Positions 889 through 28,644 of a DNA stretch of 64,000 bases are shown one piece after another; position 1 is the stretch's first letter, and each line of letters starts with the position of its first letter. A program made the translations under genes and the position numbers. Source of the stretch: Martinezella hainanensis (GTDB lineage: Bacteria > Pseudomonadota > Alphaproteobacteria > Rhizobiales > Rhizobiaceae). Location of the stretch: positions 1 to 64,000 of the forward strand of contig NZ_FMAC01000001.1 of the NCBI RefSeq assembly GCF_900094555.1, read 5' to 3'. Below the pieces are notes generated by a model that saw only the letters and a program-made list of their open reading frames with translations, was not told where the DNA came from and ran no database searches.

Positions 889-1725
889 GTGAACATCATT
901 TCCCAGAATACCGCCTTCGGCGGCATGCAGGGCGTCTTCTCGCATGAATCCGAGGCCTGCAAATGCGAGATGACCTTTGCCGTCTTCGTGCCGCCGCAAG
1001 CGATCAAGGAGCCTCGCCCGGTCCTCTGGTATCTCTCCGGCCTCACATGCACCCATGCAAACGTCATGGAAAAGGGCGAGTATCGCCGCATGGCCGCCGA
1101 ACTCGGCTTGATCATCGTTTGCCCGGATACGAGCCCGCGCGGCAATGACGTGCCGGACGAGCTGACCAATTGGCAGATGGGCAAAGGCGCCGGCTTCTAT
1201 CTCGATGCAACAGAAACGCCCTGGGCCGAAAACTACCAGATGTATACCTACATCACCGAGGAGCTGCCTGCTCTGATTGCCAGGCAATTCCGCGCCGACA
1301 TGGGCCGCCAGGGCATCCTCGGCCATTCCATGGGCGGCCACGGCGCCATGACGATCGCGCTGAAGAACCCCGACCGCTTCAAGAGCTGCTCAGCCTTTGC
1401 CCCGATCGTCCAGCCATCAACAGCCGATTGGTCCGCCCCGGCGCTGGAGAAATATTTGGGCAGCGACAAGGCCGCTTGGCGCCGCTATGACGCCTGCGCG
1501 CTCGTCGAAGACGGAGCTCGCTTCCCCGAATTCCTGATCGACCAGGGCAAAGCCGACAGCTTTCTCGAAAACGGCCTGCGCCCCTGGCTGTTCGAAGAGG
1601 CGATCAAAGACACGGATATCGGTCTGACGCTACGCACGCACGAGCGCTACGACCACTCCTACTACTTCATCTCCACCTTTATGGACGATCACCTGAAGTG
1701 GCATGCCGAACGTCTGGAGAAGTAA
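889..1725 (+). CDS. fghA: S-formylglutathione hydrolase
   Basis: This 278-residue esterase releases formate and glutathione from S-formylglutathione, the second step of glutathione-dependent formaldehyde oxidation. It shows the alpha/beta-hydrolase nucleophile elbow GHSMGG with Ser near residue 147, an LSGLTCTHANVMEK segment typical of the esterase D family, and a late HERYDHSYYFISTF stretch containing the catalytic His. Length is as usual for the family. The preceding dehydrogenase fragment at the window edge supplies its substrate. The start MNIISQNTAFGGMQG matches the normal family N-terminus. Confidence 0.95.
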   Translation: MNIISQNTAFGGMQGVFSHESEACKCEMTFAVFVPPQAIKEPRPVLWYLSGLTCTHANVMEKGEYRRMAAELGLIIVCPDTSPRGNDVPDELTNWQMGKGAGFYLDATETPWAENYQMYTYITEELPALIARQFRADMGRQGILGHSMGGHGAMTIALKNPDRFKSCSAFAPIVQPSTADWSAPALEKYLGSDKAAWRRYDACALVEDGARFPEFLIDQGKADSFLENGLRPWLFEEAIKDTDIGLTLRTHERYDHSYYFISTFMDDHLKWHAERLEK

Positions 1726-1740
1726 AGGTAGTGAGATCGT

Positions 1741-1769
1741 CTTGAATTAGGCAGACGGCAAAGGCATAT
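1741..1769 (+). promoter_or_regulatory. Predicted promoter of the guanidine-II riboswitch transcript
   Basis: CTTGAA at 1741-1746 is followed after exactly 17 bases by GCATAT at 1764-1769, close to the rhizobial housekeeping pattern CTTGAC-N17-CTATAT. It would place the transcript start about eight bases downstream, immediately before the first riboswitch hairpin at 1778. This is a pattern match only. Confidence 0.6.
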
Positions 1770-1777
1770 AGGAAACA

Positions 1778-1839
1778 CGCAGACGACTGCGGCGGCTGGC
1801 GCCCAAAACCGGCCGTAGGCATCGCGGGGACGGCCTCGC
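1778..1839 (+). ncRNA. Guanidine-II (mini-ykkC) riboswitch
   Basis: Two hairpins, each capped by an ACGR tetraloop, lie just before the exporter gene. Hairpin 1 pairs CGCAG (1778-1782) with CTGCG (1787-1791) around loop ACGA. Hairpin 2 pairs GCGGGG (1824-1829) with CCTCGC (1834-1839) around loop ACGG, with one G-T wobble. The linker is 32 bases. The Shine-Dalgarno AAAGGAG follows at 1847-1853, seven bases after hairpin 2. Paired ACGR-capped hairpins ahead of an SMR exporter define the guanidine-II class, where loop-loop docking on guanidinium exposes the ribosome binding site. Translational control is therefore likely. Confidence 0.88.
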
Positions 1840-1859
1840 TCTTAACAAAGGAGCGCAAA

Positions 1860-2174
1860 ATGGCTTGGTTCCTGCTTTTCCTCGCAGGCTTGTTTGAAAT
1901 CGGTTGGGCCGTCGGTCTGAAATATACCGACGGCTTCACGCGGCTGACACCGACGGTTTTGACCGTGATATCCATGATCATCAGCATCACGCTGCTTGGC
2001 TTGGCCGTAAAGACCCTGCCGATGGGCACGGCCTATGCGGTCTGGACCGGGATTGGCACCGTCGGCACTGTTCTGCTTGGCATATGGTTGCTCGGCGATC
2101 CCGCGACATTGGTCCGCCTGTTTTGCATCGGCTTGATCGTGGCAGGCATTGCCGGCCTCAAATTCGTCGCCTGA
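1860..2174 (+). CDS. gdx: Small multidrug resistance family guanidinium exporter (Gdx/SugE)
   Basis: A 104-residue inner-membrane protein with four predicted helices. The first helix contains the SMR glutamate in [13 protein letters not shown], the residue that couples proton and cation exchange. The GFTRLTPT loop and the [15 protein letters not shown] segment are typical of the SugE/Gdx branch rather than the EmrE branch. Gdx proteins export guanidinium in exchange for protons. The guanidine-II riboswitch directly upstream strongly supports this substrate over quaternary ammonium compounds. Start ATG at 1860 follows AAAGGAG with proper spacing. The TGA stop abuts a palindromic repeat. Confidence 0.93.
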
Positions 2175-2276
2175 GCATTTCCAGGAAAAGTGCGTAGCGG
2201 TTTTCCGTCCGGAATGCGTAAGGGAACAATAAGATAGAGCTTTTCCTCGATTCAAGGAAAAGCGGGAAAGCTCTGA
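2175..2276. repeat. Palindromic intergenic repeat, copy 2, with adjoining hairpin
   Basis: GCATTTCC at 2175 and GGAATGC ending at 2217 form the arms of an imperfect palindrome with inner GGAAAA and TTTTCC. A second inverted repeat follows at about 2236-2276 (AGAGCTTTTCC against GGAAAAGC and AAAGCTCT). It starts directly after the gdx stop codon and lies between convergent genes, so it could end transcription from both sides. It belongs to the same broad family as the repeats at 765 and 8016. Confidence 0.7.
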
Positions 2277-2285
2277 GCGCGTCGA

Positions 2286-2672
2286 TCATCGGCGCTGGCG
2301 GTTGTCCAGCGCCCAGCTTCCCGGTCCGGCAAATACCAGAAACAGGAAGATGAAGCAGAACAGGATGGCTCCATCTCCCTCATTGTTGGCCGGGAAAAAA
2401 TTGATCGGCATATGCACCATGAAATAGGCGATCGCCATTTCGCCGCTCAGGAGAAAGGCGATCGGCCGGGTGAAGAGCCCAAGCAGGACAAGTGTGCCGC
2501 CGACAAGCTCTATTATTCCTGCCACGAAGAACAGCGTCGTGATTGCGTAAGGTGCCGGTGGAAAGCCGAAAACCTTTTGCGTGCCATGCTCGATGAACAG
2601 CAACGCGGCCATGATTCGCAGGATTGCTTGGGAGGCAGGCTGATAGGGCGACAAGCGCTCGGAAAATGACAT
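2286..2672 (-). CDS. DoxX family membrane protein, paralog A
   Basis: A 128-residue protein with about four membrane helices and DoxX hallmarks: an early LFIEHGTQKVFGFP segment, a GIIELVGGTLVLLGLFTRP helix pair and a C-terminal LFCFIFLFLVFAGPGSWALD helix. DoxX proteins are poorly characterised inner-membrane proteins, some linked to thiosulfate/quinone or redox-stress functions. The next gene on the same strand (2810-3202) is a close relative with a near-identical layout, so this looks like a tandem duplication. The start MSFSERLSPYQPAS aligns with the paralog's start. Confidence 0.88.
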   Translation of the reverse strand: MSFSERLSPYQPASQAILRIMAALLFIEHGTQKVFGFPPAPYAITTLFFVAGIIELVGGTLVLLGLFTRPIAFLLSGEMAIAYFMVHMPINFFPANNEGDGAILFCFIFLFLVFAGPGSWALDNRQRR

Positions 2673-2809
2673 GAGGATCTCCGTTCGATAGGGGATGCGA
2701 AGGAGATCCTGTCAAAAGTGCTCTCGCTTCGCTGACAACGGAGTGAACACGCGAGAGGCGAATTTATTCGCCGGACCCGGCGATCAGCCGAGCCCGACGA
2801 AGAGGCTGG

Positions 2810-3202
2810 TTACTTCTTGTTGTTGTCGATCGCCAGCAGGCCCGGGCCTGCGAAGATCAGGAACAGGAAGATGAAGCAATAAAGGATCGCTGCGTCACCG
2901 CCATTGTTGGCCGGGAAGAAATTCTTCGGATAATGCGCCATGAAATAGGCGACCGCCATGTTGCCGCAAAGGATGAACGCGACCGGACGGGTAAAGAAGC
3001 CGACGATCGTCGCCAATCCGCCAACGATTTCGATGATACCCTGAACCAGAATCAGGGTCGGCAATGGGCTTGGAAATTGACCGCCAGCCGGAAAGCCGAG
3101 CAGCTTCTGCAAGCCATGTTCGATGAACAATACACCAGTGACGACACGCAATACGGTAAGAGCATAAGGCTGATATTGATTCAGCCGATCGGAAAGCGCC
3201 AT
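2810..3202 (-). CDS. DoxX family membrane protein, paralog B
   Basis: A 130-residue DoxX protein sharing with its neighbour an LFIEHGLQKLLGFP-like helix, an IIEIVGG-FTRP pair and an NFFPANNGGDA loop before the last helix. I chose ATG at 3202 (MALSDRLNQYQPYA) because GGAG lies about nine bases upstream and the start aligns with the paralog. The frame stays open further upstream to 3289, but that stretch does not look like DoxX. Substrate and function are unknown; its place upstream of paralog A suggests co-transcription. Confidence 0.88.
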   Translation of the reverse strand: MALSDRLNQYQPYALTVLRVVTGVLFIEHGLQKLLGFPAGGQFPSPLPTLILVQGIIEIVGGLATIVGFFTRPVAFILCGNMAVAYFMAHYPKNFFPANNGGDAAILYCFIFLFLIFAGPGLLAIDNNKK

Positions 3203-3325
3203 GTTAAACTCCAGTTTTAACTCCCCCACGAGGAAGCAATAGAGCGCACGGGCACGAACGTGAAAACACGGATTCTGACGCTCAATCAATTTTCCGTGTC
3301 AAATCCGTGACTTGTTGTCACATGC

Positions 3326-4858
3326 TCACAACGGGATGTTGTCGTGCTTCTTCCAGGGATTGGTCAGGTCCTTGTTGCGCAGCATCCTGAGGCCCTGCGC
3401 CAACCGCCGGCGGGTCGAGTGCGGCATGATCACTTCGTCAATATAGCCGCGCTCTGCGGCAACGAACGGTGACAGGAAACGATCCTCGTACATCTTCGTA
3501 TGGGCCGCAATCTTTTCCGGATCGGCGATATCCTTGCGGAAGATGATCTCGACCGCACCCTTGGCACCCATGACGGCGATCTGCGCCGTAGGCCACGCAT
3601 AATTCAGATCACCGCGCAGATGCTTCGACGCCATCACGTCATAGGCGCCGCCGAAGGCCTTGCGGGTGATGACGGTCAATTTGGGCACAGTCGCCTCGGC
3701 ATAGGCGAAGAGGAGCTTGGCGCCATGCTTGATCAGCCCGCCATATTCCTGCGCCGTCCCCGGCAGGAAGCCAGGCACATCGACAAAGGTGACGATCGGG
3801 ATATTGAAGCAATCGCAGAAGCGCACGAAGCGCGCGGCCTTCCGCGAGGCGTCGCTGTCGAGAACGCCGGCCAGCACCATTGGCTGATTGGCAACGAAGC
3901 CGACCGTCGCCCCCTCGATGCGGCCGAATCCACAGACGATGTTCTTGGCGAAACTCTCCTGAATCTCGAAGAAATCACCCTCGTCCGCCACCTTCAGGAT
4001 CAGTTCCTTGATGTCGTAGGGCTTGTTGGCATTGGCCGGGATCAGCGTATCGAGCGAATTGTCAGCCTCGGTCACCGACTGATAGCACTCGATCTCGGGC
4101 ACGGTCGCGGTGTTCGACTGCGGCAGGAAATCGATGAAACGGCGCACCTGCAGGAGCGTATCGACATCATTGTCATAGGCGGCATCGGCGATCGAGGATT
4201 TCGTCGTATGCACCGAGGCGCCACCGAGCTGTTCGGATGTCACGGTCTCGTTGGTGACGGTCTTCACCACATCCGGCCCGGTGACGAACATGTAGGAGGT
4301 GTCCCGCACCATGAAGATGAAATCCGTCATGGCCGGAGAATAGACGTCGCCGCCGGCACAAGGTCCCATGATGATGGAGATCTGCGGAATGACGCCCGAG
4401 GCAAGCACATTGCGCTGGAACACCTCGGCATAGCCGCCAAGCGCTGCGACTCCCTCCTGAATGCGGGCACCGCCGGCATCATAGATCCCGATGATCGGCG
4501 CCCGGTTCTTCAGCGCCATATCCTGTACTTTGGTGATCTTTTCCGCATGTGCTTCCGAAAGAGATCCACCAAAGACCGTGAAATCCTTGGCAAAAACGAA
4601 AACGGTGCGCCCGTTGACCGTACCCCAGCCAGTCACAACGCCATCGCCGGCGATCTTGCTCTTGTCCATGCCAAAATCGGTCGAGCGATGCTCGACGAAC
4701 ATGTCGAATTCCTCGAAAGAGCCCTCATCGAGGAAGATGTCGATGCGCTCGCGCGCCGTCAGCTTGCCGCGTGCATGCTGCGCGTCAATGCGCGCCTGCC
4801 CGCCGCCCAGCCTTGCGATCTCGCGACGACGTTCCAGTTCCTGCAGAATTTCCTTCAT
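3326..4858 (-). CDS. pccB: Propionyl-CoA carboxylase beta subunit
   Basis: A 510-residue biotin-dependent carboxyltransferase subunit that moves CO2 from carboxybiotin to propionyl-CoA, giving methylmalonyl-CoA for degradation of odd-chain and branched substrates. Family features are clear: the N-terminal [11 protein letters not shown] and [12 protein letters not shown] segments, [17 protein letters not shown] and an [13 protein letters not shown] glycine-rich region in the N-domain, and [14 protein letters not shown] near the C-terminus. Length is normal. The alpha (biotin carboxylase) subunit and methylmalonyl-CoA mutase are not in this window. Confidence 0.95.
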
Positions 4859-4902
4859 GCGGTCCTCTCTCCTTCGCCGCTTGGGCTTAGCATGACGCAG
4901 GC

Positions 4903-5373
4903 TTAGTTGGCGAGCCGCGGCGTGTTCAGCGAAAAGATGGAGCGAACCCGCGCGGCGATATCTTCCGCCATCAGCTCGTCCGCGGTAGCGGGATCGGGAG
5001 CAACAGTTCTGGTCTCGAAGGATGCCATGGCAACCACGGCGCCGCCATCAGCCGCAGCGGCATCGATATTGATCTTGGCACTGCTGCGGTCGCGATTGAA
5101 GCCGCGTGCCTTGCGCACGTCGGTCAGCCTGACGGTGATGACAACCTGCGGCAATTGCGGAGCAAAGCTTGTTGCAGCGATCGCAGCGTTGACGCGATCG
5201 TTGACGGCTGCGACCAACGCCGGCGACACTGGCGGCAAAGCCTGATCGGCTACGACGGTTGCACTTCGCACGGCATATGTTGGAGGCGGAGGATCGACGG
5301 ACCAGCTTGAGCACGCGGCCAGTGCCAAACATCCCACGAGCGCCGGTACGGCTCTCGGCCTCAACAACAACAT
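4903..5373 (-). CDS. Putative lipoprotein of unknown function
   Basis: A 156-residue protein with a lipoprotein signal: a basic start ([14 protein letters not shown]) and a lipobox ending LAAC, giving a mature N-terminal Cys-Ser-Ser. The start at 5373 is chosen because it places the signal at the N-terminus and has AGGGA just upstream; the frame is open to 5439 without a better start. The rest has no motif I recognise. It lies between pccB and the ATP12 chaperone gene on the same strand, with short gaps. Confidence 0.75.
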
Positions 5374-5442
5374 GATCCCTGTCCCGACTTTCGAATTTGC
5401 AAGATATGCAGATCGACATAAAGGACTGGAAATCAACAATAT

Positions 5443-6228
5443 TCAACTGCGAAGCGCAGAAAAAATGTCAGTCGCGGCCTGAAACTCCTCAAAACGCTGT
5501 GCACGGCGCTGCTCGGCCTCTTCGTCGCTGCCCCAATGCTCGATGGTCCAATCCTCGTCGAGATGGGCGAGCGACCAGACGTCGGCAAGCGGCAGGAAGC
5601 CTTTGGCAAAAGCGAGCGTCAGGATCGCTGAGCCGGTCAGTGTCGTGATCGTGTGAAGGCTCGCAAGTTCCATCGGCGTGTCAAATTTGCGCAAAGCAGC
5701 GGCGAAGGCCGCAATGGCTTCACCGGGTTGTTCCTGGTGCATGACACCTTCCGCCAGGATGAAGCGGGCGCCGAAATCGCGAGCCGCCCATTCGATCACC
5801 GGATTCCAGCGCTCCGACTGCCGCTCGACGAGCCGCTCAGGACCGTCGGCGCGATAGCAGAGCAAATCGCTGCCGGAGAAGCGGACGATTTCGTCGAACA
5901 CAGCCTGACTTTCCGTCGCAACACCGTCAATGGCCGTGTTGACGAGGCGCGTCACCGGCATGGTCGCGGGATCGATGACATCGACCTGCCGTGCCCATTC
6001 AGCGGCCACCAGCTTGGCGAGCGCTTCTGTCGGCAGCGCCAGGGAGCGTCTTGCAGGCGTCTTCACCACCTTGCCGTCAAGCGCGATGGCATGGCCGCCC
6101 TCGTCCGCGCTGATCGTCACATCCTTGTAGAAGCGCTTCGGCAAAGGCTTCTTCATCTGGATCTGCGCGCGGCGGATCGGATCGGGATGGCTGAGACCTT
6201 CGGAAAGATCGTTCAACAGGTCGCGCAT
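5443..6228 (-). CDS. ATP12 family F1-ATPase assembly chaperone
   Basis: A 261-residue protein matching ATP12, which in mitochondria binds the F1 alpha subunit during ATP synthase assembly; alphaproteobacterial homologs are presumed to do the same. Recognisable segments are KRFYKDVTISADEGGHAIALDGKVVKTP-like beta strands at the start (about residues 32-60), an LCYRADGPERLVERQ stretch, and a C-terminal HLDEDWTIEHWGSDEEAE region. A second possible start lies at Met25 (MKKPLPKRFY). It follows the HAD phosphatase gene with a 9-base gap, so co-transcription is likely. Confidence 0.88.
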   Translation of the reverse strand: MRDLLNDLSEGLSHPDPIRRAQIQMKKPLPKRFYKDVTISADEGGHAIALDGKVVKTPARRSLALPTEALAKLVAAEWARQVDVIDPATMPVTRLVNTAIDGVATESQAVFDEIVRFSGSDLLCYRADGPERLVERQSERWNPVIEWAARDFGARFILAEGVMHQEQPGEAIAAFAAALRKFDTPMELASLHTITTLTGSAILTLAFAKGFLPLADVWSLAHLDEDWTIEHWGSDEEAEQRRAQRFEEFQAATDIFSALRS

Positions 6229-6237
6229 GGCGTCACC

Positions 6238-6891
6238 TCAGAGAATATGGCTCAACAAGTCGTTCGGATGGTGGGCTATCGCGTCTGCACCGGCAGCCAG
6301 GAGCTCTTCCACGGAGGCATAGCCCCAGGCGACGCCGATGGCGGTCGCACCTGCCGCCTTCGCCATCTGCATGTCGTAGATGGCATCACCGATCACGATC
6401 GTATCATGCGGATCCATGCCGGTCTCATCGCAGCATTCCGTCACCATCGCCGGATGCGGCTTCGACGGGCAATCATCGGCGGTACGCGAGACGATGAAAT
6501 AGGGCGTGAACTCGTTGACGGCAAGAATATGGGTCAACCCACGGCGGGACTTGCCCGTGACGGCACCGAGCAGCAACTCGTCACGCGCGGCCAGCGTCTC
6601 GATCAGCGACTTGATGCCGTCGAAAAGCGGCGTCTGCATATCCGCCTCGTCGCGAACTTCAGGAAAGATCGACTTGTAATGCGCCGTCATGGCAATCGCT
6701 TCGTCATCGACATGCGGCTTGCCCTGCATGCGGGCAATGGCGATATCGAGCGTGAGGCCGATGATCGATTTGGTGGCGGAAACATCAGGACGCTTGTAGC
6801 CAAAAGCCACGAAAGTCCGTGCCATCACCTCATGGATCAGCCGCACGCTGTCGACCAGCGTACCATCGCAATCGAAAAGGACCAGCTTCAT
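6238..6891 (-). CDS. HAD superfamily phosphatase (phosphoglycolate phosphatase-like)
   Basis: A 217-residue HAD hydrolase. Motif I is LFDCDGTLVDS with the nucleophile Asp7 and acid-base Asp9; the motif III Lys is in a TGKSRRGL segment; motif IV is VIGDAIYDMQMA. An alpha-helical cap after motif I places it in the Gph/PGMB-like group. The substrate is not determinable here. The start codon overlaps the stop of the upstream pseudouridine synthase by four bases (ATGA), so the two are probably translationally coupled. Confidence 0.9.
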   Translation of the reverse strand: MKLVLFDCDGTLVDSVRLIHEVMARTFVAFGYKRPDVSATKSIIGLTLDIAIARMQGKPHVDDEAIAMTAHYKSIFPEVRDEADMQTPLFDGIKSLIETLAARDELLLGAVTGKSRRGLTHILAVNEFTPYFIVSRTADDCPSKPHPAMVTECCDETGMDPHDTIVIGDAIYDMQMAKAAGATAIGVAWGYASVEELLAAGADAIAHHPNDLLSHIL

Positions 6892-7886
6892 TCGTCGTCC
6901 GGCTCCCCCGCCGATTCCATATCAAAGCCGAGAAGGTTCCACGTCTGCACCATATGCGGCGGCAGAGGCGCGGTAACGCGCAGGCGTCCGCCACTCGGAT
7001 GCGGAATATCGATATGCCGCGCGTGCAGATGCAGACGCTTCTGGACACCGCCGGGAAAATCCCAGTTGGGATCGTCATCGAAATATTTGGGATCGCCGAT
7101 GATTGGATGGCCCATGTGCAACGCATGAACGCGCAGCTGATGTGTCCGGCCCGTATAGGGCTCCATCTCCAGCCAGGCGAGGCTCTGCGCAGCGGTTTCG
7201 AGCACACGATAGTAGGAGATCGCGTGATCGGCGCCCTCCTCGCCATGCTTGGCGATACGCATGCGATCGCCATCGGCCGTCGCCTCTTTCACCAGCCAGG
7301 TCGAGATCTTGTCCTCGTGCTTGCGCGGCACGCCCTTGACCAGCGACCAATAGGTCTTCTTGGTATCGCGCTCGCGAAACGCCGCCGTCAGCTTCTGTGC
7401 GGCGCCACGAGTGCGCGCGACCACGAGCACACCGGACGTGTCACGGTCGAGGCGATGCACCAGACGGGGCTTTTCACCCTTCTTGCTTGTCCACGCCTCA
7501 AGCATCTTGTCGATATGGCGGGTAAGGCCGGAGCCGCCCTGCACGGCGAGGCCGGCCGGCTTGTTCAGCACATAGACCTTATCGTCTTCATGAAGCAGCA
7601 TGCGCGCTAGAAGCTCGGCATCGCCACCATGTTTAAGGTCGTTACCGGCGATCGGGCCGCTCTTCAGGGCCTTGGCATCGACATCGAGAGGCGGCACGCG
7701 CACGATCTGTCCCGGCTGTACGCGCGCATCCGTCTTGACACGGCCACCATCGACGCGCACCTGGCCCGAACGCAGCAACTTCTGCAGCTGACCGAAGCCA
7801 AGCCCCGGAAAATGCACCTTGAACCAGCGGTCGAGACGCATGCCCGCTTCATCAGGCTCGACCTGTATATGTTCAATCCCGGCCAT
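6888..7886 (-). CDS. RluC/RluD family 23S rRNA pseudouridine synthase
   Basis: A 332-residue RNA-modifying enzyme. An S4 RNA-binding domain occupies roughly residues 10-70 (MRLDRWFKVHFPG through a VRVDGG loop), followed by the catalytic domain with HRLDRDTSGVLVVART, whose central Asp is the catalytic residue. The GRTHQLRVHALHMGHPIIGD segment is also typical. It is closest in layout to RluC, which modifies 23S rRNA positions in E. coli. I placed the start at 7886 (MAGIEHIQVEP); the frame runs to 7949 but the added residues are not conserved in character. Confidence 0.9.
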   Translation of the reverse strand: MAGIEHIQVEPDEAGMRLDRWFKVHFPGLGFGQLQKLLRSGQVRVDGGRVKTDARVQPGQIVRVPPLDVDAKALKSGPIAGNDLKHGGDAELLARMLLHEDDKVYVLNKPAGLAVQGGSGLTRHIDKMLEAWTSKKGEKPRLVHRLDRDTSGVLVVARTRGAAQKLTAAFRERDTKKTYWSLVKGVPRKHEDKISTWLVKEATADGDRMRIAKHGEEGADHAISYYRVLETAAQSLAWLEMEPYTGRTHQLRVHALHMGHPIIGDPKYFDDDPNWDFPGGVQKRLHLHARHIDIPHPSGGRLRVTAPLPPHMVQTWNLLGFDMESAGEPDDE

Positions 7887-21811: not shown

Positions 21812-22978
21812 TTAGGCCGCCGCCCCCGCCAGCTTGCGTCTTCCCGCTATGCGGGCAAACGCGGCGATTGCGCGATCGATATCCGTTTCGGTTGTGGTCG
21901 GCCCCAGCGAAATGCGGAGCGCACCGAGCTTGGGATCACATCCCATCGCCACGAGCACATGGCTTTCTCCCACCTTGCCCGACGAGCAGGCCGACCCGGC
22001 GGAGATCGCCACGCCTTCCAGATCGAAGGCGATCTGGCCGGTTTCGGATTTCAGTCCCGGCAGCGTGAAGAAGCTGGTGTTCGGAACGCGCGGACCATCC
22101 TTCCCATGAATAATGACATCAGGCGCCGCAAGCTCCATCCCTGCTTCCAGCCGGCCGCGCAATGAAGCGATCGCAGCATTGCGAACATCGAAGTCCAGGG
22201 CAGCGGCCTCGGCGGCGGCACCGAATCCGATGATGGCAAGCGTGTTTTCCGTGCCCGAACGATGGCCTTTTTCCTGACCGCCGCCATGGATCAACGGCTT
22301 CGGCATCAGCACCTCGCCGCGCGAGACGAGTGCGCCGACACCCTTCGGCCCACCGATCTTATGCGAGGACACGATAAGGAAATCCGCGCCGATCGCATTG
22401 ATATCGAGCGGAACGCGGCCGGCCGCCTGAACGGCATCGACCACGAAGAGACCGCCCGCTGCCTGAACGAGCTTGGCCGCATCGCCGACGGGCTGGACAA
22501 TTCCGGTCTCATTGTTCGCGAGCATGATGGCGACCATCGGCAGGCCGCTGGCCTTGTCATGGGCTGATAGCATGGTCTCCAGCGCGGCAAGATCGACCGC
22601 ACCGTTCGATGTCACAGGTATTTCGCTGACATTGTCCCTGGCAAATCGCCCACCTTCGCGCACGGCCGGATGCTCGACGGCCGATATATAAAGGTGGCTG
22701 ACCACAAGCGGCGTCCGCCCCATGCGAAATTCCGGCGTCAGCACCATATTGGCCGCCTCGGTGGCGCCGCTCGTAAAAACGACATGGGCGGGTTCCGCAC
22801 CCGTCAGTCTTGCAACCTGCCGGCGTGCGGCCTCGACAGCTGCGCGCGCTGCCCTACCTTCACCGTGAACGGAATTGGGGTTGCCTTGAATATCCATCGC
22901 ACGCAGCATTGCTTCGCGGGCCGCCGGATGGAGCGGTGCGGTAGCATTCCAATCGAGATAAAGGCGCGTTGCCGCCAT
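21812..22978 (-). CDS. sufS2: Group I (NifS/IscS-like) cysteine desulfurase, first gene of suf operon
   Basis: A 388-residue pyridoxal-phosphate enzyme. It starts [20 protein letters not shown], has the PLP Lys in [14 protein letters not shown], and the active Cys in the extended loop [19 protein letters not shown], the group I form unlike the SufS at 16815. Alphaproteobacterial suf operons often carry both types. AGGAAGAAG precedes the ATG at 22978. The start is about 150 bases downstream of the suf promoter and its RirA and Irr boxes. Confidence 0.93.
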
Positions 22979-23104
22979 AATCTTCTTCCTGCGCGACTTT
23001 GCTTTGCTGCGACCGGCTCATTTTCCTTGAAATTTCAGCCGGGCATGCCTTATGACACGTTCCACAAACCGTTGCACAAACAACGCGCGGACCACCGCAT
23101 CAAG

Positions 23105-23121
23105 TTTCGAATTGTTCTAAA
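23105..23121 (-). promoter_or_regulatory. Predicted Irr binding site (ICE box)
   Basis: TTTCGAATTGTTCTAAA matches the iron control element TTTAGAA-N3-TTCTAAA at all but one defined position. It lies just downstream of the suf -10 element, near the predicted transcript start. Irr is the haem-responsive Fur-family regulator of rhizobia. Confidence 0.65.
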
Positions 23122-23126
23122 CTGCG

Positions 23127-23155
23127 TTCTAGAAAAGATGAGCGCATTCGTCAAG
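23127..23155 (-). promoter_or_regulatory. Predicted suf operon promoter
   Basis: On the minus strand, CTTGAC (23155-23150) and CTAGAA (23132-23127) are separated by exactly 17 bases, close to the rhizobial consensus CTTGAC-N17-CTATAT. The start would lie near 23120, giving a leader of about 140 bases before sufS2. Confidence 0.7.
23139..23153. promoter_or_regulatory. Predicted RirA binding site (IRO box)
   Basis: TGA-N9-TCA at 23139-23153 fits the iron-responsive operator bound by the Fe-S regulator RirA. It overlaps the -35 element and spacer of the suf promoter, a position suited to repression when iron is ample. The motif is short, so the position carries much of the weight. Confidence 0.55.
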
Positions 23156-23211
23156 TCAACTTGCTGCGTGCCGTTGGGTTTGAACGCAGAAAAAGAAGAG
23201 CCGGAGTATCG

Positions 23212-23889
23212 ATGCCCGAAGTAATTTTCAACGGCCCCGCGGGTCGCCTTGAAGGCCGCTATCAGCCCTCCAAGGAAAAGAGCGCCCCGATCGCGATTAT
23301 CCTTCATCCCCACCCGCAATTTGGCGGCACGATGAACAATCAGGTCGTCTACCAGCTCTTCTATATGTTCCAGAAGCGCGGTTTCACGACACTTCGCTTC
23401 AATTTCCGCGGGATCGGCCGCAGCCAGGGCGAATTCGACCACGGCGCCGGCGAACTTTCCGATGCGGCATCAGCACTCGACTGGGTGCAGAGCCTCCATC
23501 CCGATTCAAAGAGCTGCTGGGTTGCCGGCTATTCCTTCGGCGCCTGGATCGGCATGCAGCTCTTGATGCGCCGCCCGGAAATCGAAGGCTTCATGTCGAT
23601 CGCGCCGCAGCCGAACATCTACGACTTCTCCTTCCTGGCACCCTGCCCGTCGTCTGGCCTGATCATCAACGGCGACGCTGACAAGGTTGCCCCGGAGAAG
23701 GACGTCAACGGCCTCGTCGAGAAGCTGAAGACGCAGAAGGGCATCCTGATCACGCACAAGGTCGTGTCGGGCGCCAACCACTTCTTCAACGGCCAGGTCG
23801 AAACGCTGCTCGGCGAATGCGAGGATTATCTCGACCGTCGCCTCAACGGCGAACTGGTACCGGAACCGGCCGCCAAGCGCATCCGCTAA
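23212..23889 (+). CDS. COG2945-type alpha/beta hydrolase
   Basis: A 225-residue serine hydrolase with IILHPHPQFGGTMNN near the start, an FNFRGIGRSQGEFD segment, the nucleophile elbow GYSFGAWIG and a final GANHFFNG His. This pattern fits the COG2945 group of predicted hydrolases of unknown substrate. ATG at 23212 has GGAG seven bases upstream; the frame is open to 23161 but less convincing. It is divergent from the suf operon, with 233 bases between. Confidence 0.88.
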   Translation: MPEVIFNGPAGRLEGRYQPSKEKSAPIAIILHPHPQFGGTMNNQVVYQLFYMFQKRGFTTLRFNFRGIGRSQGEFDHGAGELSDAASALDWVQSLHPDSKSCWVAGYSFGAWIGMQLLMRRPEIEGFMSIAPQPNIYDFSFLAPCPSSGLIINGDADKVAPEKDVNGLVEKLKTQKGILITHKVVSGANHFFNGQVETLLGECEDYLDRRLNGELVPEPAAKRIR

Positions 23890-23901
23890 GAAAAGCGGCC
23901 G

Positions 23902-24420
23902 TTACTGAGCCATCATGAAAGTCGGACACGAGATCCCGTCGATCGTCATCGACGGGTGATCCTGCATGCCGATCTTTCGCAAAACGCGTTGCGATGCAGC
24001 GTTTTGCGGGTGGGTGAAGGCGATGAAATGCCTGGCAAGATCACGTGTGAAGAACCATTGTGCCAAGGCGGTAGCAATCTCCGTCGCATAGCCATTACCC
24101 CAGGCCTCCTTCCGAATCGAATAGCCAAGCTCGAATTCGCCGCGGCCACTCTCCTCATGAAAACGCGAAAAACCGGCGCGACCGATAAAGCGGCCGTCCT
24201 CACGGCGCAGCATCTTGTATTTCGTCACGCCATCGCGCGTGTGTTCTCCGAACCAGCTTTTCAGCCGCTCCTCGGCCTTCTCCAGCGTCCAAGGGGCGCC
24301 GCCGGAAAGATAGCGCGTCGTGTCGATCGTCGAATGCAGCTGCCGAATCAACTCGGCATCACCCTTGTCCCACATCGTCAGAACGAGGCGCGGGGTTTCG
24401 AGTATGATGGTATCACTCAT
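23902..24420 (-). CDS. RimJ/RimL-type GNAT N-acetyltransferase
   Basis: A 172-residue acetyltransferase of the RimJ/RimL group (Acetyltransf_3). It opens IILETPRLVLTMWDKGDAE, has a FIGRAGFSRF strand and the acetyl-CoA loop SIRKEAWGNGYATE, with the expected HPQNAASQRVLRKIGM near the end. The acceptor (protein N-terminus or small amine) cannot be told from sequence. It converges on the COG2945 hydrolase gene with a 12-base gap. Confidence 0.88.
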   Translation of the reverse strand: MSDTIILETPRLVLTMWDKGDAELIRQLHSTIDTTRYLSGGAPWTLEKAEERLKSWFGEHTRDGVTKYKMLRREDGRFIGRAGFSRFHEESGRGEFELGYSIRKEAWGNGYATEIATALAQWFFTRDLARHFIAFTHPQNAASQRVLRKIGMQDHPSMTIDGISCPTFMMAQ

Positions 24421-24553
24421 CTGCCTGCCTGTTTTCGTGGTGGATCAGCAGCCTGCCGGAACCTGTAAGGCAGCGCCGATTGACAACCGGCCAGTCAGTG
24501 CTAACCGCTCGGCCTGATTTCAACAAGGTAATGAAGCGACAATTCCGAATGAG

Positions 24554-24575
24554 AAGGCCCGCCGAAGCGGGCCTT
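24554..24575 (-). terminator. Likely terminator of the caspase-like gene
   Basis: AAGGCCCGC and GCGGGCCTT form a perfect nine-base-pair stem around CGAA. On the minus strand it lies 25 bases after the caspase-like stop codon, but the following T-run is weak. Confidence 0.55.
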
Positions 24576-24599
24576 GAGATTATCGCCTGATATCATCGG

Positions 24600-27089
24600 T
24601 CAGTGACATGCGGGCAAGCCGGGAGCGCCGCACTTCTTCTTTTCCGGAGGCTTTTGCGGCGGAGGCGGAGGTGGTTTCCTCACCTGTTGCTGCACGACCT
24701 TCGGCTGCGGTTGGGGCTTCGGCTGAGCCTGCGGCTTGGGCGCGGGCGGCCTCGCCTGTGCCACGACGTGCGGCGCCGGCCTTGGCTGCGCAGGAGCCGG
24801 ATTGGCTTGCCGAGGCGGGGCGGCCGCGACATGAGGCTGACTGTTGATCCGAGCTTGGTTGCTGGGGATCGCCTTGGGCTTCGCCGGTGTTCTGGCGACG
24901 ACGGCCGGCGCTGCCGGGGCATGCGCATTGGGCTTCGGTGCAGCGGCAACCGGATTCGGTTTGCCGCTCGGCGCTGCTTGCGGTGGCGGAGTCTTGGCAA
25001 CCTGGTTCTGCCCCTTCACAGCAGCCGCATTGCCAGCCGCCGGCAGCGGTTGGCCCTTGGCGCCGGGCAGCGCATGTGCGCCGGCGTTCGGTGTGGCCTG
25101 CGGCTGTTGAGCCTGTTTCGTCTGCGCTGCTCCAGCATTGGCCGGCAGCTTGCCCGTGGCGGGCAGAGGCTGACCGTTGGCACCGGGAAGTGCGTGTGCA
25201 TTGGCATTTGTGCCCTGCTGGGCAGGTTGCGTGGCAACAGCCGGATTATGCACCGCATTGGGCGTGGCTTGCGGTGGCTGCCCCTGCTTCGTCGGGGCCG
25301 TTCCCGGATTGGCGGGCAGCTTGGCGCCAGCCGGCAGCGGCTGACCATTGGCGCCGGGAAGCACATGGGCAGCGGCATTTCCGCCTTGCGGCTGTGCCGA
25401 TGGCGCAACCGCCGGAGCGGTGCCAGGCGCTGCCTTGACGGCTGCTGCCGGGTTCTGCTTCTGCAGAACCGCAGCCTTCTTCTGCACCGATGGCGGCAGA
25501 GCAACATGCAACGCCGCAGCACCAGCCCCGGCGATGACAGCAGCGCCGGCAAGCTTCTGCCCGGTTGTCAATCCAGGTGCCGCAGGTGCAGCCCCGTTCT
25601 CATTGACAGTCGTGTTGTTGTTGATGACCGTCGTGTTGTTCACGACCGTATTGTGGATGTTGTTGAAGATGACGTTGTTTTCGGGCGGTGCGATATCGCG
25701 TGGCGGCTCTACCCAGGCAGGGACTGGAACGAAGACCGGCGCCGGCAGCACATAGACATCGACAGAGGGTTCCGGCGGCGCCAGCACCACGAAATCCGGT
25801 GGCGGCGGTGCCAGGAAGACAACGGGCGGCGGCGGTGCATAGCCGAAGTCGGCATCATCGAAATAAAGCACAGGCCGGTCGACATAGACCACTTCCGGCG
25901 GCGGAGGCGGCGGCACGTCATACTCGATCACGGTGAATGATGGTGGCGGCTCGAGGGCGGCCTCGAAATGCTCGAGACGGCGGCGGGCGTCCCAGACGTG
26001 CGGACCACGCGGATAACGCCTCAGATATGACCAATAGGCCTCCGGCGTGTCGGCAATCCAGGTCTCGCGCCAGGTAATTGCCTCGCGGCGGGCGGCGACA
26101 ATGGCACGGACACGCCTCACCATGGAATCGTTCGGATAGGCGGCGAGGAAATCCTCATAGCCCTGCAGCGTATCGCGATCGAGCGCGGCGAAATAGGCAT
26201 CCCGTTCGCCGAAATCTCGGATCGGTTTCGTCCTGTTTGCAACATCCTCGGCGCTCGACACCGCAGCAGCCGGCGCATTCGGACCGCGATCGAAAAAGTT
26301 GAATGCATTCTTGAATTTGGAAGCATCCCACGAGATCTCGGCGCCCTTGGTGAGATCGCCGACACGCAAGCGCGTCCGATCGAAGACGTCATCAAGCGAC
26401 AGGCCACCGACGCGGATCATTTCCGCCAGCGCATGCGCGTAGGAACCATAAGGCCCGGCCTCCTGTGGCGCGACCGTGCCGGGCGCCGCATTGAAGGCAA
26501 TCAGCTGGTTGGCGTCGGGATCGACCAGTGCCAGACCACCAGCCAGTGGCTGATTGGACTGCACGAAAGGATTGGCCCTCGCCGCATCCAGCACGACGAT
26601 GCTGCCGCGATTGTTGATGGCCGACAACGATTTGGTGAGGTCGCTCACGCGGATCGCCTGGACGGGGACATCCGTGGCATTGGCGATCTGCGCATCGACA
26701 GGCACGAAATAATTATCGCCCTGATACTGCAGGCCATAACCCGCCAGATAGACGAACACGACGGTATCGGGACCGGACGCGTTCGCTTTCGTCAGAAAGT
26801 CGCGCATCGCGTCGCGCATGCCGTTCTGGTCGAGATCGCGCGCACCGATCACGTCGAAGCCCGCAGCCTGCAGCGTTTGCGCGATCAGGCCGGCATCGTT
26901 GGCCGGCGTCGGCAGAGCGCCTGCCTTGTAGGCAGCATTGCCCACGACGAACGCTATTCTCTTTTCAGGGGAACCTTGAGCTTCGGCCGGGCTCGCAGCA
27001 GCGACACCGACCAAAACCAACATCATGGCAAGAAATGCCCAGATCGTCTTTTTTGATGACAATCCCATCTTCGAAAGCAGAGGCGACAT
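24600..27089 (-). CDS. Exported caspase-like protein with lost catalytic dyad and Pro/Ala-rich tail
   Basis: An 829-residue protein. A signal peptide ending near AEAQG is followed by a C14 caspase-like domain (about residues 40-260) starting KRIAFVVGNAAY. The catalytic His position reads LAGYGLQ (Tyr118 instead of His) and the catalytic Cys position reads VLDAARANPF (Ala170 instead of Cys), while the NYFVPVDA strand remains. After a helical linker come Pro-rich blocks, an Asn/Thr/Val-rich stretch near residue 500, a short hydrophobic segment, and a long Ala/Pro/Gln tail with repeats. Protease activity is unlikely; a binding or envelope role is inferred. ATG 27089 is preferred to a TTG at 27134. 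Confidence 0.85.
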   Translation of the reverse strand: MSPLLSKMGLSSKKTIWAFLAMMLVLVGVAAASPAEAQGSPEKRIAFVVGNAAYKAGALPTPANDAGLIAQTLQAAGFDVIGARDLDQNGMRDAMRDFLTKANASGPDTVVFVYLAGYGLQYQGDNYFVPVDAQIANATDVPVQAIRVSDLTKSLSAINNRGSIVVLDAARANPFVQSNQPLAGGLALVDPDANQLIAFNAAPGTVAPQEAGPYGSYAHALAEMIRVGGLSLDDVFDRTRLRVGDLTKGAEISWDASKFKNAFNFFDRGPNAPAAAVSSAEDVANRTKPIRDFGERDAYFAALDRDTLQGYEDFLAAYPNDSMVRRVRAIVAARREAITWRETWIADTPEAYWSYLRRYPRGPHVWDARRRLEHFEAALEPPPSFTVIEYDVPPPPPPEVVYVDRPVLYFDDADFGYAPPPPVVFLAPPPPDFVVLAPPEPSVDVYVLPAPVFVPVPAWVEPPRDIAPPENNVIFNNIHNTVVNNTTVINNNTTVNENGAAPAAPGLTTGQKLAGAAVIAGAGAAALHVALPPSVQKKAAVLQKQNPAAAVKAAPGTAPAVAPSAQPQGGNAAAHVLPGANGQPLPAGAKLPANPGTAPTKQGQPPQATPNAVHNPAVATQPAQQGTNANAHALPGANGQPLPATGKLPANAGAAQTKQAQQPQATPNAGAHALPGAKGQPLPAAGNAAAVKGQNQVAKTPPPQAAPSGKPNPVAAAPKPNAHAPAAPAVVARTPAKPKAIPSNQARINSQPHVAAAPPRQANPAPAQPRPAPHVVAQARPPAPKPQAQPKPQPQPKVVQQQVRKPPPPPPQKPPEKKKCGAPGLPACH
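25036..25400 (-). repeat. Coding repeats in the caspase-like protein tail
   Basis: Three imperfect copies of a block reading roughly H-LPGA-GQPLPA lie within the C-terminal coding region, near 25365, 25190 and 25070. The first two are followed by KLPAN and a QPPQATPNA-like stretch. They suggest internal tandem expansion of the disordered tail. Confidence 0.75.
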
Positions 27090-27387
27090 ACCGGTTTCTT
27101 TCACGAAACATGAGGTGCGTACGGGGATCAACAAGAAATCACTAGGATTTGATTCGGGCGAATGCGCGGCTTATTCCCGGCGGCTTCGCGGCGATGTTAC
27201 GGTCTATTGACGTTCAGAAGCATCGATTTACAAACCGCACCCAGCCTAAGGCATTTAGCGAAACTTGATCTCACGCCCCACCAAAATGGTGACGCGCCGG
27301 TAAATCGGTGATAAACGCGCCCCGCGACATCAAACAATAGCGACTTCGCCGCATCCGCCAAGGTTGTGGCATCGAGAGACCAAGATC

Positions 27388-28644
27388 ATGGCTGAGTTCA
27401 AATCCGATTTCCTGCACACCCTGCAAGAGCGCGGCTTCATTCATCAGATTTCCGATGAAGCCGGCCTCGACGACCTCTTCGCAAAGGAAACCGTGACGGC
27501 CTATATCGGTTTCGATCCCACGGCATCGAGCCTGCATGCCGGCTCGTTGATCCAGATCATGATGCTGCACTGGATGCAGACGACCGGTCATCGGCCGATT
27601 TCGTTGATGGGCGGCGGTACCGGCATGGTCGGCGACCCCTCGTTCAAGGAAGAGTCCCGCCAGTTGATGACGGTCGATACGATCGAAAGTAACATCGCTT
27701 CCATCAAGCGCTGCTTCTCGAACTACCTCACCTACGGCGAAGGCCCGAAAGACGCGTTGATGATCAACAACGCCGAATGGCTGCGCTCGCTGAACTACCT
27801 CGAATTCCTGCGCGATGTCGGCCGGCACTTCTCGGTCAACCGCATGCTGTCCTTCGACAGTGTCAAGACGCGCCTTGACCGCGAGCAGTCGCTGTCGTTC
27901 CTCGAATTCAACTACATGATCCTGCAGGCCTACGACTTCGTAGAGCTGGCGAAGCGTTACGATTGCCGCCTGCAGATGGGCGGCTCGGATCAGTGGGGCA
28001 ACATCGTCAACGGCATCGACCTAGGTCACCGCATGGGGACGAAGCAGCTTTTTGCCTTGACCTCGCCGCTGCTGACGACGGCCTCCGGCGCCAAGATGGG
28101 CAAGTCCGCTACCGGCGCGGTCTGGCTGAACGCCGACCTGCTGTCGGCCTATGATTTCTGGCAGTACTGGCGCAACACCGAGGACGCGGATGTTTCGCGC
28201 TTCCTGAAGCTCTACACGACGCTGCCGATGGACGAGATCGCTCGCCTCTCCGCGCTTGCCGGTTCGGAGATCAACGAGGTCAAGAAGATCCTCGCGACCG
28301 AAGTGACCGCGATCCTTCACGGCCGCGCAGCAGCCGAACAGGCAGCCGAAACCGCGCGCAAGACCTTCGAGGAAGGCGGCCTGTCCGAAAACCTGCCGTC
28401 GATCGATGTTCCGGCTTCCGAACTCGAAGCTGGTATCGGCCTGCTGGCCCTGATCGTCCGCGCCGGCCTTGCCGGTTCGAACGGCGAAGCTCGCCGCCAC
28501 GTCCAGGGTGGCGCAGTGCGCATCAACGACCAAGCCATCAGCGACGAGCGCAAGGTCATCGGCACCGGTGAGATCACCGCCGATGGCGTGATCAAGCTGT
28601 CGCTCGGCAAGAAGAAGCACATCCTGATCCGCCCGGCCGCCTGA
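27388..28644 (+). CDS. tyrS: Tyrosyl-tRNA synthetase
   Basis: A 418-residue class I synthetase that charges tRNA-Tyr. The HIGH-like site reads [11 protein letters not shown], the KMSKS-like loop is [11 protein letters not shown], and [17 protein letters not shown] contacts tyrosine. A C-terminal S4 domain ([16 protein letters not shown]) follows. ATG 27388 has a weak GAGAGA upstream; the frame is open 24 bases further but is not family-like. It is divergent from the caspase-like gene across 298 bases in which I see no clear promoter or leader structure. Confidence 0.96.

Follow-up and report, generated by a model that had tools for sequence, protein, structure and literature searches.

Pseudo-orthocaspases with a Tyr-Ala pair at the positions of the catalytic dyad and with long C-termini have been reported from Rhizobiales by Klemencic et al. 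2019, and this rhizobial variant is already in print (PMC6426788). Frequent dyad substitutions in Alphaproteobacteria were described by Asplund-Samuelsson et al. (PMC3501461). Among the papers listed in our literature searches, we recognized no title as a study of the protein described here or of the function of rhizobial pseudo-orthocaspases. An nnrR mutant expression table (PMC6710368) contains a 'caspase family protein' of Bradyrhizobium diazoefficiens, bll3611.

Here we analyze a gene of this kind in a 64,000-nucleotide stretch of Martinezella hainanensis DNA, which we refer to as the window. The open reading frame of 829 codons plus a stop codon lies on the reverse strand, with its ATG at 27089 and the end of its stop codon at 24600. 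New here are a C-terminal architecture that is tied to the loss of catalysis, eight invariant residues in a helical module, a cysteine pair found in 51 of 73 family rows, the lack of an association with photosynthetic reaction centers, and the finding that this gene is the only C14 match in 27 of 40 carrier genomes of the genus.

The caspase domain and its substituted dyad

The only Pfam domain found in the protein is PF00656 (Peptidase_C14), which matches residues 43-257 with 109.2 bits against a gathering cut-off of 21.4 (E 3.2e-31); the only NCBIfam match, NF047832, falls far below its cut-off. The predicted fold aligns with whole caspase chains, an observation that bears, together with these profile matches, on the lack of a separate p10 domain expected of a pseudo-orthocaspase. 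Profile and model both place the protein in the Peptidase C14/caspase fold. When the protein is aligned with His-Cys relatives, the sequence at the His position is AGYGLQ (Tyr118) and that at the Cys position is VLDAARANPF (Ala170), as the initial annotation had proposed. The protein lacks the His-Cys dyad of an active orthocaspase, and its p20 domain with substituted dyad residues is that of a pseudo-orthocaspase. We also looked for an intact catalytic His and Cys elsewhere, which that annotation had named as grounds for giving up its reading. The sole cysteines of the protein are residues 820 and 828, and the only histidines before residue 470 are 219, 364, and 374. Given that the caspase domain contains no cysteine, it has no displaced dyad.

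An alignment with C14 members from related rhizobia had been suggested as a check on these substitutions. In the alignment made here, all 67 distinct close members lack both catalytic residues, having Tyr (64) or Gln (3) at the His position and Ala (65) or Gly (2) at the Cys position, while His and Cys are both present in all 39 of the more distant relatives kept in the alignment. Sequences were taken from score bands of 80-200 and >400 bits, one 60-bit match was dropped, and duplicates were removed (90 to 67 and 40 to 39).

The same division is seen in a set of 143 distinct caspase domains, for which domains longer than 170 amino acids were used and identical or contained ones were removed (196 to 143), all relatives having been collected by similarity to the window protein. 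A strong match (>80 bits) to the region that follows the domain is present in 99 of them, and none of these 99 has the catalytic Cys. Their dyads, His position first, are YA (74), LS (6), YG (4), QA (3), HA, YS, EA, and VS (2 each), and HG, LA, IA, and VA (1 each), so the catalytic His is kept in three. Among the other 44 domains, 43 have the His-Cys (HC) dyad: the region matches weakly in four (three HC, one HA) and not at all in 40 (all HC). Loss of catalysis coincides with one C-terminal architecture. In the 73-row family alignment described below, Tyr and Ala occupy the two positions in 56 and 61 rows, respectively.

Locus L134 holds two adjacent copies of the family on its reverse strand (1517-3979 and 4311-7349), both of which have kept the His and lost the Cys (HA and HG). 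On the forward strand of locus L157, positions 2001-5474 hold an open frame of 1158 residues that has an HA dyad, the Trp and His of the helical module, and a very long repeat tail of the GMRPQPG type.

Table 1. Coordinates of the pseudo-orthocaspase gene and its parts in the window.
Feature	Position	Strand	Basis
Pseudo-orthocaspase gene, 829 aa + stop	24600..27089	-	ORF list, translation, PF00656 profile match
Signal-peptide-like N-terminus, residues 1-38	26976..27089	-	by eye, own sequence and relatives' starts
Caspase (p20-type, PF00656) domain, residues ~40-257	26319..26972	-	profile match (26319-26963), predicted fold
Tyr118 codon, replaces catalytic His	26736..26738	-	alignment
Ala170 codon, replaces catalytic Cys	26580..26582	-	alignment
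Helical module (perhaps TPR-like), residues ~276-378	25956..26264	-	alignment, predicted structure
Pro/Tyr-rich arm, predicted ordered, residues ~379-470	25680..25955	-	alignment, block pLDDT 73-91
Asn-rich stretch, residues 471-497	25599..25679	-	sequence, alignment
Ala/Gly-rich hydrophobic segment and next helix, residues ~503-545	25455..25583	-	dN/dS 0.066, model
Pro/Ala/Gln tail, low model confidence, degenerate LPGANGQPLPA repeats, residues ~546-814	24648..25454	-	self-match
C-terminal Cys pair CGAPGLPACH, residues 820-829	24603..24632	-	alignment

Predicted structure of the module, arm, and tail

The protein begins with a hydrophobic stretch followed by SPAEAQ, which by eye resembles a signal peptide, and a signal-like start is likewise seen by eye in most of the N-termini of the 99 relatives. 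The protein is probably exported, to judge from these N-termini. Structure prediction, which had been proposed as a further check, gave a confident model of residues 41-470, in which 10-residue blocks have mean pLDDT values of 73-98 (87-98 over residues 41-270). After residue 470, the blocks are mostly below 60, except for residues 531-550 (87 and 74). With Foldseek and VIA-align, the closest solved fold is MALT1 (3uo8_C; Z 23.1 over 247 residues, rmsd 4.4, 19% identity), and caspases are found as well.

Conservation of the helical module was assessed in 73 rows, comprising the window protein and 72 of the 73 relatives that matched the module region at >80 bits and shared <94.5% identity; the start of L155 is uncertain, and this row was excluded. 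R335, E336, W340, Y352, W353, Y355, G362, and H364 are invariant in all 73 rows, a degree of conservation that is inflated by the choice of rows according to their module-region match. By eye, the HC relatives L160, L159, and L161, which have a weakly related module, carry R, K, and K at the position of W353 and Tyr in each case at that of H364, and L157, with its HA dyad, has W at 353 and H at 364. These invariant His, Trp, Arg, Glu, and Tyr residues might give the protein a different catalytic activity centered on His364 and its neighbors, but the matches of the module are weak or resemble helical repeats and no catalytic motif was recognized in it, so we regard such an activity as highly improbable.

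When the module is modeled alone, its helices are retained (blocks 86-96). For the arm, pLDDT is 81-85 (residues 401-450) when the whole protein is modeled and 59-76 (residues 396-455) when the caspase domain is omitted. This difference suggests that the arm packs on the caspase domain in the model, although a fall upon truncation could possibly have other causes. Comparison of the module with solved folds gave no confident match, and novelty is not implied by this; the best were BamD, whose Z of 5.9 lies in the range that the tool gives by chance, and a Foldseek match at E 0.95. The module of the window protein has no Pfam match. Across the 73 members, weak Pfam matches at E ≤0.1 are to Phage_int_SAM_5 (19), YfiO (4), TPR_9 (3), and TPR_16 (1), so the commonest is to an integrase SAM-like family and not to TPR, and a likeness to TPR proteins or BamD is only weakly indicated. 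When the module profile was searched against PDB sequences, three chains of ribosomal S15 at E ~1 were the sole matches.

Both the Asn-rich stretch (residues ~471-497) and the Pro/Ala-rich repeat tail noted in the initial annotation are present in the 829-residue protein. Comparison of the protein with itself shows that the tail contains degenerate repeats of the HALPGANGQPLPA type (69% over 45 amino acids, E 3e-8; 60% over 30 amino acids, E 0.2); in the DNA, Tandem Repeats Finder reported one weak 18-base array and nothing else. Residues 513-531 were considered as a transmembrane segment, given a mean hydropathy of 1.66-2.03 in 14 rows, but this was rejected because the segment is absent in L108, L114, L115, and L123.

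Two cysteines lie within the last 16 residues in 51 of the 73 family rows, and eight of the 22 rows without this pair are cut off by the end of the locus. No other cysteine follows residue 40 in 44 of the 51. An oxidized C-terminal loop in the envelope is likely. In L059, L060, L064, and L077, the C-terminal pair is His-rich (e.g., KCHGKHGCH and KCHAGHECH) and might bind metal.

Evolution of the family

We constructed a maximum-likelihood tree from 77 rows (<88% identity) and 215 columns with both dyad columns blanked; the tree is unrooted, and the tree tool flags long branches, one pair of which is joined. A single branch (100/99) separates the 33 Cys-bearing rows from the 44 Cys-lacking rows. 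The Cys state requires one change on this tree and the His position requires 10. Since the His-Cys dyad is found throughout C14 (PMC6426788), we take it as ancestral, and the catalytic Cys was apparently lost once in the family, as judged from this tree. The label 'strong C-terminal region' requires two changes on the tree because L157 (HA, weak match) groups with the pseudo-orthocaspase rows, and it requires one change in 44% of bootstrap trees. The HC relatives that carry a module are placed among the other HC rows, with L161 at the base of these, and are not sister to the pseudo-orthocaspase group. An HC ancestor that already bore the module is plausible.

We measured selection as median pairwise dN/dS among 15 sequences of an R. 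tropici-like group (85-105 of 105 pairs usable). The ratio is 0.065 for the caspase domain, 0.053 for the module, 0.101 for the arm, 0.121 for the Asn-rich stretch, 0.066 for residues 503-545, 0.189 for the tail, 0.103 for the last 15 residues, and 0.380 for the signal region. Purifying selection is strong and the gene is maintained. Long antisense ORFs overlap the gene, as they might if it were a pseudogene or a gene-calling artefact on a GC-rich strand. With dN/dS of 0.05-0.10 across the folded part, a confident predicted fold, and no internal stop in any of the 40 matches from the genus, the probability of either is negligible.

The initial annotation had proposed that the protein is a pseudoenzyme. 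This proposal is strengthened by the absence of the catalytic Cys from all 99 relatives with the same C-terminus, by the loss of residues that are invariant in HC relatives, by the single Cys change on the tree, and by purifying selection. Sequence and model together indicate that the protein is most likely a maintained pseudoenzyme whose loss of catalysis is old.

To see what else changed in the caspase domain, we compared 43 non-redundant pseudo-orthocaspase rows with 33 HC rows; positions 256 and 257, although marked as kept, are gap columns and have no meaning here. Fold residues are retained in the pseudo-orthocaspase rows, as are D65 (39/43), D168 (43/43), G117, Q121, P203, and G204. D65 and D168 presumably correspond to MALT1 D365 and D462, which are acidic S1 pocket positions. 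Five positions that are invariant in all 33 HC rows, D209, G210, S215, P216, and Q251, have been lost, Asn173 and Gly194 have been lost in part of the pseudo-orthocaspase rows, and the residue has switched at positions 61, 201, and 215. Sixteen positions are newly fixed in the 43 rows (≥85% versus <60%), including R147, D150, E223, R238, R242, and G249.

These data bear on whether the dead cleft itself is the binding site, holding Arg/Lys-containing peptides uncut as a sensor or decoy while the module merely supports it. The retained D65, D168, G117, Q121, P203, and G204 count in favor of this. However, the five HC-invariant residues listed above are gone and the former His position is variable (Y, L, Q, H, E, V, or I), and we consider a binding role of the cleft unlikely.

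Distribution, genome context, and proposed role

In a sample of 148 genomes from the genus, 107 have a PF00656 match of any kind and 40 carry the family, of which one or two are incomplete. The family is the sole PF00656 match (E 0.001) in 27 of these 40 carriers, and the other 13 have at least one further match. In the family-level group, a match of ≥66% identity is present in 11 of 394 genomes, and the next best among the matches listed is ≤39%. The C-terminal region is matched at >80 bits in 51 of 397 genomes sampled from the order. Named carriers include R. multihospitium, R. tropici, R. lusitanum, R. rhizogenes, Phyllobacterium myrsinacearum, and Pleomorphomonas oryzae.

The protein could in principle form a pair with an active C14 protease and so regulate it, in the manner of cFLIP with caspase-8 or TbMC4 with TbMC3. 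PMC6426788 gives precedent for this in other pseudo-caspases, and the 13 carriers with a further PF00656 match are in line with it. However, a search of the window's own genome for a second PF00656 match at E 0.01 found none, as is the case at E 0.001 in the 27 other-match-free carriers, and we regard pairing as very unlikely.

A role in photosynthesis was proposed for alphaproteobacterial pseudo-orthocaspases on the basis of the orders that contain the variants (PMC6426788). In the order sample, reaction-center genes are present in 9 of the 51 genomes that have the family versus 66 of the 346 that lack it (Fisher p = 1, kinship being ignored), where 'with' denotes the 51 of 64 matching genomes above 80 bits and the 13 weaker or partial matches are placed under 'without'. 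Three of the weaker ones (G460, G494, and G726) have reaction-center genes, and counting all 64 gives the same picture (12/64 versus 63/333). That both order searches covered the same 397 genomes is taken from their shared handles. A search of the window's own genome for Photo_RC at E 1e-10 gave no match. The photosynthesis link is rejected for this branch of pseudo-orthocaspases only; as an account of the window protein, it is exceedingly improbable.

A link to nitrogen fixation was likewise rejected: within the genus, nifH is carried by 13 of the 40 genomes that have the gene and by 44 of the 108 that lack it (p = 0.45), and a search of the window's own genome for nifH found none. Gene neighborhoods were compared in 30 loci that came from differing settings, with flanks of <1 to ~9 kb and ORFs of ≥110 amino acids read from ATG. 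No operon partner emerged from these neighborhoods. Only an ABC-ATPase-like group, named by eye, recurs in six of the 30 loci; four further groups recur in three of 30, one of which consists of antisense frames of the family itself. Of 39 named loci, 25 have a tyrS gene, identified by eye, next to the caspase-like gene, and at least two of the other 14 (L049 and L070) are too short upstream to judge. In the window, positions 21812-28644 hold, by eye, tyrS, the caspase-like gene, a GNAT acetyltransferase, an alpha/beta hydrolase, and a sufS-like cysteine desulfurase. This order from tyrS to the desulfurase is conserved in most of the 25 tyrS-adjacent loci.

Binding or scaffolding in the cell envelope, perhaps via the helical module, is the most likely function that the sequence suggests. 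In the account that we favor, and to which we give somewhat better than even credence, the protein is a probably secreted, non-catalytic caspase homolog. The family would derive from His-Cys orthocaspases in which a related module was already present, and its ancestor would have lost the catalytic Cys once while the caspase fold was retained to serve as a rigid platform for binding. The working surface would probably have shifted away from the dead active site and onto the helical module (W353, H364, and nearby Arg, Trp, and Tyr residues), the Pro-rich arm would probably pack against the core, and the long flexible tail, ending in a probable disulfide loop, would reach through the envelope. 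Export, binding, arm docking, and the disulfide are steps that we infer. The retention of D65 and D168 counts against a module surface, as the old cleft could still bind. A fuller version, which we hold only tentatively and consider the less probable, is that an orthocaspase of the order lost catalysis in a single ancient event, that its working site moved to the module (AYWxYLxRYPxGPH) with the caspase domain scaffolding the arm, and that the product is an order-wide periplasmic receptor or adaptor that involves neither an active caspase nor photosynthesis.

Pseudo-caspases are common in Rhizobiales, and this family offers a clean case, with apparently one Cys loss and selection across the order. 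It is frequently the sole caspase homolog of its genome, in bacteria that are genetically tractable, and candidate residues outside the dead active site can now be named for mutation. For this branch, the result speaks against the published photosynthesis idea (PMC6426788).

Among known systems, the nearest solved fold is that of the MALT1 paracaspase, which differs in having an Ig domain, according to entry titles, and in sharing only 19% identity. MALT1 is an active protease. L159 (1593-3254, reverse strand) and L160 (1178-2866, forward strand) resemble the window protein in that a weakly related helical module comes after their caspase domain (the two phmmer scores are 40.2 and 39.3 bits) and in having, by eye, a signal-like start, but they differ in that their His-Cys dyad is intact and bacterial SH3_3 domains take the place of the Pro-rich arm. 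Their combination of HC dyad, module, and SH3_3 is a possible ancestral architecture. Synechocystis SyOC is also a pseudo-orthocaspase, and its deletion leads to higher oxidative stress tolerance (PMC7889975), but its dyad is Tyr-Gly (Table 1 of PMC6426788) and its host is a cyanobacterium. The window protein also resembles the Tyr-Ala and Tyr-Ser alphaproteobacterial pseudo-orthocaspases in the available part of PMC6426788, which likewise have a substituted dyad (Tyr-Ala being among the commonest) and a long C-terminus and occur in Rhizobiales. Whereas that part of the paper describes the C-terminus as being without identifiable domains, here it comprises a helical module, a Pro-rich arm that is predicted to be ordered, an Asn-rich stretch, a flexible tail, and, at its end, a Cys pair.
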